Positions 21,337-27,550 of a DNA stretch of 64,000 bases are shown piece by piece (position 1 is the stretch's first letter; the number at the start of each line of letters is the position of its first letter). Source of the DNA: Cellulosimicrobium arenosum (lineage in GTDB: Bacteria; Actinomycetota; Actinomycetes; Actinomycetales; Cellulomonadaceae); assembly GCF_014837295.1 (NCBI RefSeq), contig NZ_JACYHB010000009.1:1-64000 (forward strand), read 5' to 3'. The notes below the pieces were generated by a model. It saw only the letters and a program-made list of their open reading frames with translations. It was not told the origin of the DNA and made no database searches. The position numbers and the translations under genes are program-made.

Positions 21337-22266
21337 ATGACCCAGATCGACCTGCGCATCTTCACCGAGCCCCAGCAGGGGGCCACCTACGACGACGTCC
21401 TGGCCGTGGCACGGGCCACCGAGGACCTCGGCTTCGACGCGTTCTTCCGCTCCGACCACTACCTCGCGATGGGTGGCGACGGTCTGCCTGGCCCGACCGA
21501 CGCCTGGACGACCCTCGCCGGTCTCGCGCGCGAGACGAGCAGGATCCGCCTCGGCACGCTCGTGTCGTCGGCGACGTTCCGCCACCCGGGGGTGCTCGCC
21601 ATCCAGGTCGCGCAGGTCGACCAGATGTCGGGCGGGCGTGTCGAGCTCGGCCTCGGCGCGGGCTGGTTCGCGCGTGAGCACGAGGCGTACGGCATCCCGT
21701 TCCCGGAGCGGCGGTTCGGGATCCTCGAGGAGCAGCTCGCGGTGATCACGGGGCTGTGGGAGACCCCCGTCGGGGAGACGTTCGGCTTCGACGGCGAGCA
21801 CTACACGCTGACCGACTCGCCCGCGTTGCCGAAGCCCGCGCAGGCGCGGGTCCCCGTGATCGTCGGCGGCCACGGACCCAAGCGGACCCCAGCGCTCGCC
21901 GCCCGGTACGCGAGCGAGTTCAACGTCGCGTTCCCCGACCCAGGCGTCCTGCCCGACCGGATCGAGAACGTGCGCGCCGTGTGCCAGGACGCCGGCCGGG
22001 ACCCGGACTCGCTGGTCTACTCGGGCGCGTTCGTCCTCGCCGTGGGCAAGGACGAGGCCGAGTTCCGTCGCCGGGCCGCGGCGATCGGGCGCGAGCCCGA
22101 CGAGGTGCGACGCAACGGCCTGGCCGGGACCGTCCCCGAGGTCGCCGACAAGCTCGCGGTCCTCGCCGAGCAGGGCGCGACCCGCTTCTACCTGCAGGTC
22201 CTGGACCTGCACGACCTCGACCACCTCGATCTCGTCGCGCGCGAGGTCGCGCCGCAGCTGCGCTGA
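21337..22266 (+). CDS. LLM-class F420-dependent oxidoreductase
   Basis: A 309-residue TIM-barrel protein of the luciferase-like monooxygenase superfamily. Motifs include DLGFDAFFRSDHYL, RIRLGTLVSSATFRHPGVLAIQVAQVDQMSGGRVELGLGAGW, REHEAYGIPFPERRFGILEEQL and PVIVGGHGPKRTPALAARYASEFN. These match the F420-dependent TIGR03560-like group of actinobacteria. It probably uses reduced or oxidised F420 to act on an unknown organic substrate. ATG 21337 is 6 nt after CAGGGT, a weak -10, so it may also be leaderless. Confidence 0.85.
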   Translation: MTQIDLRIFTEPQQGATYDDVLAVARATEDLGFDAFFRSDHYLAMGGDGLPGPTDAWTTLAGLARETSRIRLGTLVSSATFRHPGVLAIQVAQVDQMSGGRVELGLGAGWFAREHEAYGIPFPERRFGILEEQLAVITGLWETPVGETFGFDGEHYTLTDSPALPKPAQARVPVIVGGHGPKRTPALAARYASEFNVAFPDPGVLPDRIENVRAVCQDAGRDPDSLVYSGAFVLAVGKDEAEFRRRAAAIGREPDEVRRNGLAGTVPEVADKLAVLAEQGATRFYLQVLDLHDLDHLDLVAREVAPQLR

Positions 22267-22308
22267 GGCGTCGCCGGTCCGGCCGGGCACGCGCGGCAGC
22301 GCGCTGCG

Positions 22309-22329
22309 GCGTCCCACCTGTCGGGACGC
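22309..22329 (+). terminator. Hairpin after the LLM oxidoreductase gene
   Basis: GCGTCCC (22309-22315) pairs with GGGACGC (22323-22329) around a 7-base loop about 45 bases past the stop codon. There is no T-run, so termination is inferred from position and stem strength. Confidence 0.4.
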
Positions 22330-22590
22330 ACGGCGCGCCGGCGCCGTGAATTCTTCGTTTCCGCCGATGAACGAGCGGTTTCCGGTTCGTGGAGGACGGC
22401 GCCGACGAGCGTGCCCGACGACGTCCGCGGCCGACGGCGGAACACGCGTGGGAACGCTGCCACGCCGCGGATGCCGTGCCTCCGCCGCGCTGCCGGGCGT
22501 GCCGGCGAGCATCTTCACACACGGTCGGGTGCCCCGGACGGTCGCGACACGTCGCCTCCCTTCACCCGTGACAGCACCCGGTGCGCGAGC

Positions 22591-22767
22591 TAGGTTCGCC
22601 GCAGACGACGAGGTGGCCCGCTCCCGAGCAGGCCACCTCGCACCGTCTCCGGGCGTTCGCCCGGTGGAAACGCACCACGCAGCACCCCCGACGCCGACGA
22701 GGTCGCCGCACCCGCGGACGCCGACCGGTGTCCGCGACTCGAGCCCACAGAGACCCGAGGACACGCG
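22591..22767 (+). promoter_or_regulatory. Promoter and structured 5' leader of the GT2-HlyD-GH81 operon
   Basis: The gap 22267-22767 has no credible gene. TAGGTT (22591-22596) looks like a -10 hexamer. Right after it lies a perfect 9-bp hairpin, GAGGTGGCC (22610-22618) with GGCCACCTC (22631-22639). A second hairpin follows, CCGGGC-GTTC-GCCCGG, at about 22648-22663. The remaining leader before ATG 22768 is about 100 nt. This leader of roughly 165 nt is long for this genome. It may be an attenuator or an RNA sensor, but I do not recognise a known riboswitch class. Confidence 0.5.
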
Positions 22768-24684
22768 ATGGCCGTCTCCGAGTTCGACCGCCTTGTCGTC
22801 ACCCCACGACGCACGCAGTACGTGCGCTCCGCGTCGTTCGGCCCCCCGGCCGAGCCCGCACGGTCCACCGCCCCGCCCCGGGACGAGAACTCGGCGGCAC
22901 GCTCGCCGTCGCTCGTGCTGATCATGCTGATCGCCACGCTCGGGGTCGTGGCCTATGCCGTCTTCCTGCTCAACCCTGCCAACCGGGGCGACGCGCTGCC
23001 CTACGTCATGGTCATCACCGCCGAGACGGTGCTGGTCACCCAGGCGCTGCTCGCGATGTGGACCGTGCTCTCGAGCGGGCACGACACGCGCGGCTTCTCC
23101 TTCCACCACGCGAAGGACCGGCTGTTCGACGTCCCCGAGATCATCCGCGACAACGCCGAGGACGACCCGACCCGCTGGAACCTGTACCTGCACGACGAGC
23201 CCGTCACCGTCGACGTCTTCATCACGACCTACGGAGAGGACCTCGACACCATCGCGCGCACCGTCCGCGCCGCCGTCGCGATCCGCGGAACCCACCGCAC
23301 GTGGGTGCTCGACGACGGCCGGTCCGACGACGTGCGCGACCTCGCCGCCCAGCTCGGTGCACGCTACGTGCGCCGGCTGTCGAGCAACGGCGCGAAAGCC
23401 GGGAACGTCAACCACGCGCTCGCCATCGCCAAGGGCGACTACTTCGTCATCCTCGACGCCGACTTCGTCCCCCGGCCCGAGTTCCTCGTCGAGACCGTGC
23501 CGTTCTTCGTCAAGGACGACGTCGCGTTCGTCCAGACGCCGCAGACCTACGGCAACCTCGACAACCTCATCTCGCGCGGTGCCGGGTACATGCAGGCCGT
23601 GTTCTACCGGTTCGTCCAGCCCGGCCGGAACCGGTTCAACGCCGCGTTCTGCGTCGGCACCAACGTGATCTTCCGCCGCGCCGCGATCGACGACATCGGC
23701 GGCATGCACACCGACTCCAAGTCGGAGGACGTGTGGACGTCGCTCATGCTCCACGAGCGCGGCTGGAGGACGGTCTACATCCCCACGACCCTCGCCGTCG
23801 GCGACACCCCCGAGACCGTCGAGGCCTACACCAAGCAGCAGCTGCGCTGGGCGACCGGCGGATTCGAGATCATGCTCCAGCACAACCCCCTGAGCCCGCG
23901 GCGCACGCTCACGCTCGACCAGCGCCTGCAGTACACGGTGACCGCCACGCACTACCTGGCGGGCATCGCGCCGCTCGTGCTGCTGCTCGTCCCGCCGCTG
24001 CAGATCTACCTGGACCTGACGCCCATGAACCTCACGATCTCGTGGGGCACGTGGCTGCTGTACTACGCCGGGTTCTACGTGCTGCAGATCGCCATCGCGT
24101 TCTTCACCCTCGGCTCGTTCCGGTGGGAGGTGCTCATGCTCGCGTCCGTGTCGTTCCCGATCTACACCAAGGCCCTGTGGAACGCGATGACCGGCAAGGA
24201 GCAGGCGTGGCACGTGACCGGGCAGAAGGGTGCCGTCCGGTCGCCGTTCACCTTCATGATGCCGCAGGTGCTGTTCTTCGCGTTCCTGCTCATCACGTCG
24301 GCGGTCGGGGCGTGGAAGGAGTGGGGCGACGCGATGCCGAGCCTCGCCCTCGCGTGGAACGTGACCAACACGTTCATCCTCGGGGCGTTCGTCGTGACGG
24401 CGTTCCGGGAGTCGGTCGCGGCGAAGAGCGTGGCACGTTCCGAGAGAGGGCAGCGGCCCGGCGGGGTGCGGCGGCGGGGGCGGGCGGTCGCGCCGGGTCT
24501 TCCATCCGGCGCCTCGTTCCTCGGCGCCTCCCGCCAGGCCCGCCACGACCCGGTGCGACCGCCCGTCCCCGCCGCCTCGTCCGACCGTGCGGACTCGCGG
24601 CGGTCCGCGGGTGCGCTCGCCGTCTCCTCCCTGCCCGACGGCGCGTCGTCGGGTCCCGTCGTCCCTGCCGGAGGTGTCGCATGA
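22768..24684 (+). CDS. Processive family 2 glycosyltransferase, cellulose/curdlan synthase-like
   Basis: A 638-residue inner-membrane synthase that would polymerise a beta-glycan from a nucleotide sugar and extrude it. There are two N-terminal helices (about 48-68 and 76-101). The cytosolic GT-A domain has the processive motifs D182-D-G, D230-A-D, S319-E-D (the TED position) and QQLRW 357-361. Further helices lie at about 389-410, 423-445 and 510-560. No PilZ domain follows; the last about 90 residues are a polar Arg/Ser/Pro tail, so direct c-di-GMP control as in BcsA is not evident. It is the first gene of an overlapping operon ending in a beta-1,3-glucanase, which points to a beta-1,3-glucan product. 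That is inference. Confidence 0.85.
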   Translation: MAVSEFDRLVVTPRRTQYVRSASFGPPAEPARSTAPPRDENSAARSPSLVLIMLIATLGVVAYAVFLLNPANRGDALPYVMVITAETVLVTQALLAMWTVLSSGHDTRGFSFHHAKDRLFDVPEIIRDNAEDDPTRWNLYLHDEPVTVDVFITTYGEDLDTIARTVRAAVAIRGTHRTWVLDDGRSDDVRDLAAQLGARYVRRLSSNGAKAGNVNHALAIAKGDYFVILDADFVPRPEFLVETVPFFVKDDVAFVQTPQTYGNLDNLISRGAGYMQAVFYRFVQPGRNRFNAAFCVGTNVIFRRAAIDDIGGMHTDSKSEDVWTSLMLHERGWRTVYIPTTLAVGDTPETVEAYTKQQLRWATGGFEIMLQHNPLSPRRTLTLDQRLQYTVTATHYLAGIAPLVLLLVPPLQIYLDLTPMNLTISWGTWLLYYAGFYVLQIAIAFFTLGSFRWEVLMLASVSFPIYTKALWNAMTGKEQAWHVTGQKGAVRSPFTFMMPQVLFFAFLLITSAVGAWKEWGDAMPSLALAWNVTNTFILGAFVVTAFRESVAAKSVARSERGQRPGGVRRRGRAVAPGLPSGASFLGASRQARHDPVRPPVPAASSDRADSRRSAGALAVSSLPDGASSGPVVPAGGVA

Positions 24685-25418
24685 CCTGGTCCAACCGCTT
24701 CCGACTCGTCGCCGGGCTGCTCGCGGTCGTGCTCGTGTGCGCCGCGCTGACGCTCGTCATGAACCGCCGCCTCGCGCAGGCCACGAGCGAGTCGGCCACG
24801 ATCCGGGCCGAGTCGCTCGGCATCGGCACGGACTACGCCGGGACCGTCAGCGAGGCGCTCGTGGAGGACGGTGACGAGGTCGCCGCGGGCGACCCGTTGT
24901 TCACCGTGAGCAGCCTGACGCTGCAGCACGACCTGGCGCTCGGGCTCGTGAGCACCGACACGGCCGCGTACCAGGTGGACGACGACGGCACGATCACGCT
25001 CGTCGCCCCGTACGACGCCGTCGTGACGGAGGTCGCCGCGCGCCAGGGCGCCTTCGTCGAGGCGGGGTCCACGATCGCGACGCTCGACCGGGCCGGTTCC
25101 CTGACCGTCGACGCCCAGGTCGAGCTCGACCCGAGCGACTTCGCGCGCGTGCGCACCGGCGCGCCCGTCAGGATCCTCCTGCCGGACCGGAGCGAGCTGA
25201 CGGGCGAGGTCGCGTCCGTGTCCGTGACCGACGACGAGGAGGAGAACAGGGTGCTCGCGACGGTCGAGGTGACCAGCGACGAGCTCGCCGACGGTGCGAA
25301 CGACGGGCTCGTGTCGTCGGGAACTCCGGTCGTCGCGAGCATCGACCTGCACGTCGACGGACCGCTCGCCGGGGTGAACGAGACCTTCGGGGACTTCCTG
25401 CGGAAGGTGGGGCTGTGA
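24681..25418 (+). CDS. HlyD/Alg44-like membrane-anchored accessory protein of the glycan synthase
   Basis: A 245-residue protein with one N-terminal helix (RLVAGLLAVVLVCAALTLV) and an extracytoplasmic part. The extracytoplasmic part holds two lipoyl-like half motifs (DYAGTVSEALVEDGDEVAAG and APYDAVVTEVAARQGAFVEAG) and a beta-barrel region (SDFARVRTGAPVRILLPD). This is the layout of periplasmic adaptor (HlyD) proteins and of Alg44-type polymer secretion partners. ATG 24681 overlaps the synthase stop, and its own stop overlaps the GH81 start (GTGA). It most likely guides the nascent polymer across the envelope. Confidence 0.72.
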   Translation: MTWSNRFRLVAGLLAVVLVCAALTLVMNRRLAQATSESATIRAESLGIGTDYAGTVSEALVEDGDEVAAGDPLFTVSSLTLQHDLALGLVSTDTAAYQVDDDGTITLVAPYDAVVTEVAARQGAFVEAGSTIATLDRAGSLTVDAQVELDPSDFARVRTGAPVRILLPDRSELTGEVASVSVTDDEEENRVLATVEVTSDELADGANDGLVSSGTPVVASIDLHVDGPLAGVNETFGDFLRKVGL

Positions 25419-27550
25419 GCACGCCGACGAACGGGCGCTACGCGCCGTGCGCGCTCGCCCTGGCGACGGCCCTGGTGCTGCTGAGCGGCTGCAGCGTCTT
25501 CGGGTCCGACGCCGCGCCGGCCGACAGCGAGGACGGTGGTGCCGTCGTGGTGCAGCCCGCCGCGGACCGCACCGGTACGCTCCCGGACGTGGACCCCTCG
25601 ATCCTGCCGCAGGAGTCGGTGGCGCCCGCGCCCACGATGCGTCTCGCCGACGGTCTCGTCCCGCCGACGAACCGCTGGTTCTCCGGGCTCGTGCTCGGCG
25701 ACGAGCCGCTCCCCGTGTTCCCGGTGCCGCTCGCGTTCGGCACGACCGACGGCGGGTTCGGCGTCGGGCTGCCGGCCGTGGAGGTCACCCCGACGGCGAT
25801 CGTCGGGCCCTTCGTCCCGCAGGTCGGGGTCGACGTGGGGGCCGCGTCGTCGGTCCTCACCGCGTACGACACGGCCTCGGTGACCCTCGAGCTGCGCGAC
25901 GCCGACGGCTCGCCGCTCGGAGACGTGAGCCTCGTCCAGGGGTCGCCCGTCCTGCGGTACACCGCGGCGACGGACCAGACGGCCGGGCTGACCCAGGCGT
26001 TCGTGGCGTCGGACGACGCGGACGGGCTCGTCACGGCGGAGATCGACGGGCGCACCTGGCTCCTGGTCGGTCCGGACGGGCCGTCCGACGCGGAGTCGAT
26101 CGCCGCCGACGGACGCTCCGTCGACCTTGCTGCGGGGGAGTCGGTCGCGTTCGTCCCGGCCCCCGACCCGGTCGGGTCGTCGGGGCAGACCTCCGACGAG
26201 GTGCTCGTCACGCTCGCGACGGCGGCGGCCATCCCGGTGACCGGCACGAGCCTCGCCTACGGCGCCGACGACTCCGGCGTGACGACCGCGATCACCTACG
26301 AGACGGGCTCGCCCGACGCGGGGACCGTCGTCGTGCGGATGCCGCACCAGCGCGAGGACGGGGCGACGTGCGACCTCGGCACGTACGCGACCGTCCACGG
26401 CACGGTCGAGGTGTGCGTCACGCGCACGCTCTCGTGGTCGAGCCCCGCGGTCGAGCCGGCGGGCGCGCTCGACGTCTCGGGGCTCACCGCCGACCAGGAA
26501 GCGGAGCTCGCCGACCAGGTGCGCGCGGACGCCGCGGCACGCGAGGACGGGCTGGACCTGCCGTCGGACACGTACTTCGGCGGCAAGTCGCTCGCCCGCG
26601 AGGCGAACCTGCTCGTCCTCGCGGAGCAGCTCGGTCTCGACGACGTCGCTGCCCCGCTGCGCGAGCAGCTCACCGCGGCGCTGCGCGAGTGGGCCGAGCC
26701 GGACGGCTGCCAGTCCCGCGACGCCCGGTGCTTCGTGTACGACCCGGCGGTGCGCGGGGTCGTCGGGAAGACGCCGAGCTTCGGTTCGGACGAGTTCAAC
26801 GACCACCACTTCCACTACGGCTACTTCCTGTACGCCGCGGGCATCCTCGCGGCCGACGACCCGGGGCTCGCCGCCGACCTCGCGCCCGTCCTGGACCTGC
26901 TCGCCGCAGACGTCGCGGCGGGTGCGGGCAGCGACGACTTCCCGGCGCTGCGGGTGTTCGACGCGTACGCCGGGCACTCCTGGGCTGCCGGGTACTCGCC
27001 GTTCGCGGACGGGAACAACCAGGAGTCCGCGTCCGAGGCGGTGTCCGCCTGGAACGGGCTCGCGCTCTGGGCCGCGGCGAGCGGCGACGACGAGCTGGAG
27101 ACCCAGGCCCGGTGGCTGCTCGGCGCCGAGGCCGCGTCGGCGCGGGAGTACTGGACGGACTTCGACACCGACGACCCCGCGGTCGACGGGTTCTCCCACT
27201 CGGTGACGTCGCTCGTGTGGGGCGGCAAGCGCGACTGGGCGACGTGGTTCAGCGCGGAGCCGAGCGCGATGCTCGGGATCCTCGTGCTGCCCACCCAGCC
27301 GGTAGCGCAGTACCTCGCGGGCGACCCGGAGCGCATCCGGGCCAACCTCGACGAGGCGCTCGGCGGCCCGCGCGAGGACCCGGCGTCGTGGGACGTCATG
27401 TTCGGCGACCAGCTCCTCATGTACTCCTCGCTCGCGGGGCCGGACGACGCGGCGTCGGCGCTCGACGTGGCCCGCGACCTGCCGGACGAGCGCATCGACG
27501 ACGGCAGCACGCGCTCGTACCTGCTCGCGTTCCTCATGTCCCGCACCTGA
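25415..27550 (+). CDS. GH81 endo-1,3-beta-glucanase lipoprotein
   Basis: A 711-residue family GH81 inverting endo-beta-1,3-glucanase. The lipoprotein signal ends VLLSGC with the lipidated C26, so the enzyme is anchored outside the membrane. An N-terminal beta-sandwich (about 75-330) is followed by the alpha/alpha barrel. The barrel holds the GH81 hallmark DEFNDHHFHYGYFLYAAG (D463 the likely acid) and GNNQESASEA at 533-542 with E537 and E541, the conserved acidic pair. The GTG start overlaps the previous stop. As the third gene of a synthase operon it occupies the place that BcsZ cellulase has in cellulose operons, suggesting it trims or releases a beta-1,3-glucan. Confidence 0.9.
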   Translation: MSTPTNGRYAPCALALATALVLLSGCSVFGSDAAPADSEDGGAVVVQPAADRTGTLPDVDPSILPQESVAPAPTMRLADGLVPPTNRWFSGLVLGDEPLPVFPVPLAFGTTDGGFGVGLPAVEVTPTAIVGPFVPQVGVDVGAASSVLTAYDTASVTLELRDADGSPLGDVSLVQGSPVLRYTAATDQTAGLTQAFVASDDADGLVTAEIDGRTWLLVGPDGPSDAESIAADGRSVDLAAGESVAFVPAPDPVGSSGQTSDEVLVTLATAAAIPVTGTSLAYGADDSGVTTAITYETGSPDAGTVVVRMPHQREDGATCDLGTYATVHGTVEVCVTRTLSWSSPAVEPAGALDVSGLTADQEAELADQVRADAAAREDGLDLPSDTYFGGKSLAREANLLVLAEQLGLDDVAAPLREQLTAALREWAEPDGCQSRDARCFVYDPAVRGVVGKTPSFGSDEFNDHHFHYGYFLYAAGILAADDPGLAADLAPVLDLLAADVAAGAGSDDFPALRVFDAYAGHSWAAGYSPFADGNNQESASEAVSAWNGLALWAAASGDDELETQARWLLGAEAASAREYWTDFDTDDPAVDGFSHSVTSLVWGGKRDWATWFSAEPSAMLGILVLPTQPVAQYLAGDPERIRANLDEALGGPREDPASWDVMFGDQLLMYSSLAGPDDAASALDVARDLPDERIDDGSTRSYLLAFLMSRT

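Follow-up and report, generated by a model that had tools for sequence, protein, structure and literature searches.

Function of a three-gene GT2-HlyD-GH81 operon

Which polymer is made by a membrane synthase whose operon also encodes an enzyme that degrades beta-1,3-glucan? This question is raised by a three-gene operon in Cellulosimicrobium arenosum, in the 64,000-nucleotide stretch analysed here (contig NZ_JACYHB010000009.1, positions 1 to 64,000; hereafter the window). It encodes a processive membrane glycosyltransferase of family 2 (GT2), a short adaptor of the HlyD type and a lipoprotein of glycoside hydrolase family 81 (GH81). We found that this trio, hereafter the cassette, is a conserved unit, and that its GT2 belongs to a lineage of its own by sequence. 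The operon probably represents a distinct type of beta-1,3-glucan synthase in bacteria, equipped with its own GH81 hydrolase for trimming or release, the product being deduced from GH81. The features are as follows.

22267..22767, + strand: upstream region of 501 bp with no gene assigned, behind an LLM-type open reading frame that ends at 22266; presumed operon promoter
22768..24684, + strand: GT2 processive membrane glycosyltransferase, ATG start, 638 amino acids, recognized by Pfam and motifs
24681..25418, + strand: HlyD/membrane-fusion-type adaptor, ATG start, 245 amino acids, recognized by Pfam and a structure model
25415..27550, + strand: GH81 lipoprotein, GTG start, 711 amino acids, recognized by Pfam, PDB sequence matches and a lipobox

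The first-pass annotation had described a GT2, a HlyD-like protein and a lipid-anchored GH81 in this order, and Pfam and the lipobox agree with it. The 4-base overlaps that it reported are also present in the open reading frame coordinates (ATGA between GT2 and HlyD, GTGA between HlyD and GH81). Its start of the unit at 22591 has to be corrected: positions 22591-22593 are the TAG stop that opens the GT2 frame, and the ATG at 22768 is the first start codon. A 4-base overlap was seen in 74 of 82 GT2-HlyD gene pairs, with the HlyD start codon taken as the one closest to where the conserved protein begins. The HlyD-GH81 distance was -4 in 54 of 79 loci, the GH81 start nearest the upstream stop having been taken, a choice that favours overlap. 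In one relative (L022:4097-6658; L and G numbers are our own handles for loci and genomes), GT2 and HlyD lie in one continuous frame of 853 amino acids, the result of either gene fusion or faulty sequencing, and this frame was excluded from the hidden Markov model and the tree.

Conservation of the trio

To describe the distribution of the cassette in named genomes, we used the best 80 GT2 loci of at least 583 confirmed relatives. HlyD was present in all 80 and GH81 in 79, so that the full trio was found in 79 of 80 loci, while genes flanking the operon in the window recurred in only 19, 12, 10 and 1 of them. No match was obtained in these loci for the flanking queries PPK2, CbiQ and KdpD, the last of which lies beyond the fetched flanks. 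Among the 79 full loci, GH81 is split over frames in three (L082, L083 and L125) and cut by a contig end in L097. The cassette occurs in Cellulomonas, Isoptericola, Sanguibacter, Cryobacterium, Frigoribacterium, Curtobacterium, Microbacterium, Demequina, Nocardioides, Micropruina, Propionicicella, Actinomyces and others, including one metagenome-assembled genome labelled Acidobacteria. GT2s of named C. cellulans are 92-93% identical to that of the window over the best segment.

Closer relatives gave a similar picture. The full trio was found in 18 of 21 fetched regions, and together with the named loci this agrees with a co-occurrence of GH81 and GT2 across actinobacteria, which the first-pass annotation had named as a check. 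A strong GT2 match (at least 719 bits) was present in 19 of 59 relatives, all of which had a cassette-type GH81; the latter was present in 22, hence in three without the GT2. Within the window's genus, 12 of 17 genomes had both genes and five had neither. In Cellulomonas (the genus of G035), cassette-type GH81 was detected in 50 of 81 genomes, the presence of GT2 being checked in the fetched genomes only. The cassette is therefore not universal among genomes. A further 18 fetched loci comprised 14 full cassettes and four with GH81 alone. The GT2 of L165 lies in two frames. In a sample of the phylum, 25 of 296 genomes had a GT2 match at 1e-30, and the 24 beside the window's own were 30-45% identical.

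The association was also examined from the GH81 side. A search of 297 genomes of the order yielded 41 places scoring at least 315 bits (cassette type) and 18 scoring at most 206 bits (ordinary type), the cut between the two types being read off the scores of this same search. GT2 and HlyD were adjacent at all 29 newly fetched high-scoring places and at 37 of all 41, which include eight seen earlier, the window's among them. No GT2 accompanied any of the 12 ordinary-type GH81s examined out of 18 (11 fetched ones and the second GH81 of the window's own genome). This second GH81 (L171; G000:C9:75173-77146) is 34% identical to the first, and no GT2 was found within its fetched stretch.

In a GH81 tree of 79 sequences, the 12 ordinary GH81s formed one separate branch, and five GH81s without GT2 (L038, L040, L045, L172 and L173) were placed among those of the cassette. 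This placement suggests that GT2 and HlyD were lost later at these five loci, although support in the cassette part of the tree was uneven (0.04 at one node; the GH81 of L167 was too short and was left out). Three of them (L038, L040 and L045), which belong to other genera, have GH81 beside the same downstream permease gene. No export signal was visible in the alignment for these three proteins, that of L040 being read from a likely internal start, and they appear to have changed from a surface to a cytoplasmic enzyme.

The three proteins and a possible mechanism

The GH81 protein matches Glyco_hydro81C (PF17652) at 184 bits (cut-off 25.6; E 6e-54), while the N-terminal Pfam model stays below its cut-off (12.6 vs 25.6 bits). 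Its nearest solved structures by sequence are GH81 enzymes, with PDB GH81 chains matched down to 5e-60. It has a lipobox, LSGC, at residues 23-26 (Cys26) and conserved acidic motifs, NDHH462-465 and NNQESASE534-541. The motifs NDHH and NNQExxSE were found in 61 of 62 cassette members of the GH81 alignment; in the count across the 79 loci they were found in 70, with nine misses. At the N-terminus, 51 of the 79 have a lipobox, 22 a membrane helix and six neither by the automatic assignment, a lipobox being visible by eye in five of these six. Endo-beta-1,3-glucanase is the only activity reported for the family in the available part of PMC9609564, where the enzyme studied had no detected action on barley mixed-linkage glucan or celluloses. 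Since this is the only reported activity, we infer a beta-1,3-glucan as the product of the operon.

The adaptor matches HlyD_3 at 58 bits (cut-off 22.2). Its structure model (pLDDT, the predicted local distance difference test score, of 87) contains an N-terminal helix (residues 3-31) followed by barrel-sandwich and beta-barrel domains, with a short link between the lipoyl halves and no long coiled-coil hairpin. Fold matches are ZneB, EmrA, BesA, MacA and MexA, with TM-scores of about 0.5-0.6 by query length. The modelled protein thus has a membrane-fusion-protein fold, with helix 3-31 as the predicted membrane anchor. A role as a multidrug efflux adaptor was rejected, HlyD following GT2 in all 80 loci. 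We also considered CrdA and BgsB, the partners of the curdlan and mixed-linkage synthases discussed below, as specific relatives. The profile of the cassette adaptors scored 3.6 bits with CrdA, 17 with BgsB and 19-28 with four other rhizobial partners, and the best generic adaptors in PDB scored higher (31-37 bits), which does not support such a specific relationship.

The GT2 matches PF13641 at 101 bits (cut-off 27), and its nearest solved structure by sequence is BcsA. It contains the motifs DD182-183, KAG210-212, D230xD232, QTPQ256-259, SED319-321 and QxxRW357-361, and its tail is variable after about residue 560. Residues were counted in 61 of the 101 cassette members collected, and the counted positions of DD, KAG, DxD, QxPQ, ED and QxxRW were kept in all 61. 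The gating loop is different. The motif FxVTxK is fully conserved in BcsA, CrdS and BgsA (PMC6821405), whereas the window's GT2 has WxVTG481-485 in its place; across the cassette the form is WxxTG, with W, T and G in 61 of 61 and Lys in only one. The same form of the loop was seen in actinobacterial GT2s from L140, L144, L145 and L147 (genomes of 7-9 Mb). A gene matching PMT_2 lies near the GT2s of the last three, below the cut-off in L144. The structure model of the GT2 was poor (mean pLDDT 56) and was not used.

With regard to phylogeny, an IQ-TREE reconstruction of 48 sequences grouped the 16 cassette GT2s as a single clade (support 98) with a long stem (0.78) and with other actinobacterial GT2s as nearest neighbours. 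One of the nearest (L131:4318-5514) has a GH5 gene downstream, and a more distant actinobacterial GT2 (L139:2848-3912) is directly followed by a GH26 gene. These cases suggest that neighbouring hydrolases may more generally indicate what a GT2 produces.

Taken together, the genes would fit the following mechanism, which we consider likely as a whole. Polymerisation of UDP-glucose (uridine diphosphate glucose) would be the task of the GT2, which would also export the chain across the membrane by a channel of its own. The HlyD-type protein, short and anchored in the membrane, would guide the chain or stabilise the synthase on the outer face, with a role like that of BcsB, BgsB or CrdA in cells that lack an outer membrane. 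GH81, anchored at the cell surface, would shorten, free or edit the chain as it emerges, in the way BcsZ acts on cellulose. The polymer would be a glucan with beta-1,3 runs, most likely a curdlan-like linear beta-1,3-glucan. Donor, linkage, complex formation, transport and the roles of the partners are all predicted in this scheme.

Relation to curdlan in Cellulomonas

C. flavigena is reported to form curdlan abundantly, and C. fimi, like some other species, to form a little (PMC3544764). This 2013 study flagged two GT2s per Cellulomonas genome with low identity to the Agrobacterium curdlan synthase; in the excerpts available, GH81 is mentioned only as a beta-glucan-degrading family, and the reuse of curdlan by C. 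flavigena is called unclear. We found the full cassette in C. flavigena, C. fimi and C. gilvus. The scaled positions of its GT2 fit the flagged genes Cfla_3154, Celf_3456 and Celgi_1506 (fractions 0.86/0.85, 0.92/0.91 and 0.48/0.47, respectively), and on this basis we infer that the cassette GT2 is one of the two flagged homologues in each genome. The link with curdlan-forming Cellulomonas that the first-pass annotation had drawn is in line with the presence of the cassette in C. flavigena.

A further step, that the cassette represents a second class of beta-1,3-glucan synthase in bacteria, which evolved separately and has GH81 built into the synthesis machine, and that it is the Cellulomonas curdlan synthase, is tentative, and we would place it slightly below an even chance. 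If true, GH81, otherwise digestive or lytic, would gain a biosynthetic role, cells that lack an outer membrane would have a beta-1,3-glucan system of three genes, and a second natural way for a GT2 enzyme to set the beta-1,3 linkage would be known. Such glucans would then be predicted in Microbacterium, Curtobacterium, Cryobacterium, Frigoribacterium, Demequina and Nocardioides, among others. The operon provides one flagged Cellulomonas GT2 with two partners, an adaptor and a hydrolase from a family of beta-1,3-glucanases.

Among the open-access matches listed (titles and beginnings of abstracts), we found no description of a GT2-HlyD-GH81 operon, and only PMC3544764 contained any of the five locus tags queried. 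A genome paper on a Cellulosimicrobium exopolysaccharide (PMC8325422) concerns levan, and the available portion of its main text contains no GH81, GT2 or HlyD.

Evidence against a beta-1,3-glucan and alternative explanations

Several observations weigh against the reading of the operon as a beta-1,3-glucan synthase or as the source of Cellulomonas curdlan. The first concern the GT2. In the IQ-TREE phylogeny, CrdS, BgsA and rhizobial GT2s formed a clade (support 100), and the cassette lay outside both this clade and the BcsA group. The position of RsBcsA Glu299 is occupied by Arg in CrdS and BgsA but by Ala, Ser or Thr in 60 of 61 cassette GT2s. The key glucan-interacting residues of CrdS are Gln237, Gln259, Lys270, His374, Trp422, Glu439 and His442 (PMC6821405). 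The last four are replaced in the cassette, mostly by Val, Ile/Val, Leu and Ala. The two glutamines are matched by Gln in 61 of 61, and the Lys270 site is Arg or Lys in 61 of 61; these shared residues, including the Arg in place of Lys270, are frequent among other actinobacterial GT2s too. As to GH81, its motifs match those of solved GH81 chains except 6fop, in which Ala stands opposite Glu537, and minor activity of some GH81 enzymes on barley glucan and carboxymethyl cellulose is cited in PMC9609564. The linkage has exceptions as well. Cassette-type GH81 occurs without GT2 at four of the 41 places (G027, G032, G552:C62 and G599:C3), and the sole miss among the 80 named loci is L055, a 4.7-kb contig of Cellulomonas septica with another gene after GT2 and HlyD. 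Finally, C. gelida is described as making no curdlan (PMC3035266, in the part available) and carries the whole cassette (L057), and C. fimi and C. gilvus each have a second candidate GT2, L221 and L223, whose positions correspond to Celf_3585 and Celgi_0939, respectively.

The gene 3' of HlyD in L055 (4150-4714) resembles an anchored protein at its start and a different membrane protein in the remainder. This different gene rules out a merely truncated contig and the locus was counted as a miss, although the replacement may be either an assembly join or real.

A FastTree analysis with 11 cassette GT2s gave the same separation from CrdS, with a different sister group of the cassette. A kinship with CrdS was not supported: the GT2 lies outside the CrdS clade in both trees, and neither the Arg that CrdS and BgsA have opposite RsBcsA Glu299 nor four more of the CrdS residues are present in it. 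We also discarded FCVGT as a mark of beta-1,3 synthesis; its Val is present in 61 of 61 cassette GT2s and in CrdS, but it is not diagnostic because the actinobacterial GT2s of L144, L145 and L147 share it. On the other hand, the GT2 did not group with the synthases of cellulose, chitin oligosaccharides (NodC) or poly-GlcNAc (PgaC) in a sequence set without hyaluronan synthase. Sequence comparison thus assigns it to a lineage separate from CrdS, BgsA and BcsA. As the GT2 falls outside the clades of known product, the product has to be read from the hydrolase partner. The beta-1,3-glucan proposed in the first-pass annotation accordingly keeps the support of GH81 family specificity and receives none from the GT2, while its compact synthase operon with a cognate hydrolase is borne out by the conservation of the trio.

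One alternative is that the curdlan synthase of Cellulomonas is the other flagged GT2, and that the cassette product is minor there, which would be compatible with a cassette beta-1,3-glucan elsewhere. Both GT2s of each genome were flagged in PMC3544764, and the other one (L221, L223) keeps FxVTxK and is placed, though weakly supported (0.69), on the side of BcsA and CrdS in the tree. However, its FFCGS motif is the BcsA form, a Pfam scan of five neighbours revealed no HlyD or GH81, and a search of three C. flavigena stretches did not recover this GT2. We regard this alternative as unlikely.

The product might also be a mixed-linkage beta-1,3/1,4-glucan or another beta-glucan, of which GH81 cuts only the beta-1,3 runs. 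BgsA, the mixed-linkage synthase of S. meliloti, is likewise paired with a HlyD-type protein, the acceptor site of the cassette GT2 is of neither CrdS nor BcsA type, and the minor barley-glucan activity mentioned above would fit such a polymer. Against this, the enzyme studied in PMC9609564 did not hydrolyse barley glucan, according to the part available, and the cassette GT2 is outside the BgsA clade. A mixed-linkage product is in our view quite unlikely.

That the polymer is not a beta-glucan at all, GH81 being a nutritional enzyme co-transcribed by chance, is very unlikely: GT2 phylogeny alone gives no product and cassette-type GH81 stands without GT2 at L038, L040, L045, L172 and L173, but linkage in 79 of 80 and 37 of 41 cases despite changing flanks, with 0 of 12 for ordinary GH81, would not be expected from chance co-transcription. 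C. fimi and C. gilvus, which carry the cassette GH81, do not grow on curdlan (PMC3544764, excerpts), a weak argument against a nutritional role because both also hold an ordinary-type GH81 (G625 and G631).

Comparison with known synthase systems

For comparison with the beta-1,3-glucan synthase reading preferred here, L043 was taken as crdASC of Agrobacterium and L041 as bgsBA of Sinorhizobium meliloti, the latter presumably located on pSymB. These assignments were based on gene order, CrdA length and the CrdS residues at published numbers. The CrdA gene in L043 is 1455 bp, and its published length is 1458 (PMC10819609).

Similar to the cassette, CrdASC combines a GT2 containing D,D,D,QxxRW with a HlyD-domain partner and no PilZ, and it shares Gln237 and Gln259, Lys270 being conservatively replaced by Arg in the cassette. 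In contrast, the cassette GT2 forms a separate clade, has lost the gating-loop Lys and lacks His374, Trp422, Glu439 and His442; its adaptor is half the length of CrdA and encoded downstream of the GT2, and GH81 stands where crdC does. The gene taken as crdC (L043:4716-5996) had only a chance-level Pfam match (E 0.51).

BgsBA, which makes a mixed-linkage glucan, has the same two-gene layout of GT2 and HlyD with overlapping genes. It differs in its separate GT2 clade, the reversed order of the partners, the Arg at the RsBcsA-299 site and the absence of an annotated hydrolase from the 13 kb surrounding bgsA.

Cellulose synthase systems provide a precedent for the pairing of a synthase with a dedicated endo-glucanase, namely BcsZ (GH8) in Bcs and CcsZ (GH5) in clostridial Ccs (PMC7710045), and the cassette resembles both in this respect. 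Unlike Bcs, it has no PilZ, its partner is of HlyD rather than BcsB type, and its hydrolase is GH81. The CelA model scored 251.8 bits on the GT2, below the cut-off of 699.1. The absence of PilZ noted in the first-pass annotation was confirmed by the Pfam scan, in which the GT2 had no match to this family. Its statement that partners of BcsB and CrdA type are both lacking holds for BcsB only. The proteins taken as CrdA and BgsB carry a HlyD_3 domain like the adaptor, so that the HlyD partner is a likeness to these systems and not a difference.

Extra tandem GT2/HlyD genes were observed near one or two GH81 genes in L106, L117, L122, L170, L174, L175, L187, L189, L195 and L196, Demequina being included among these loci.

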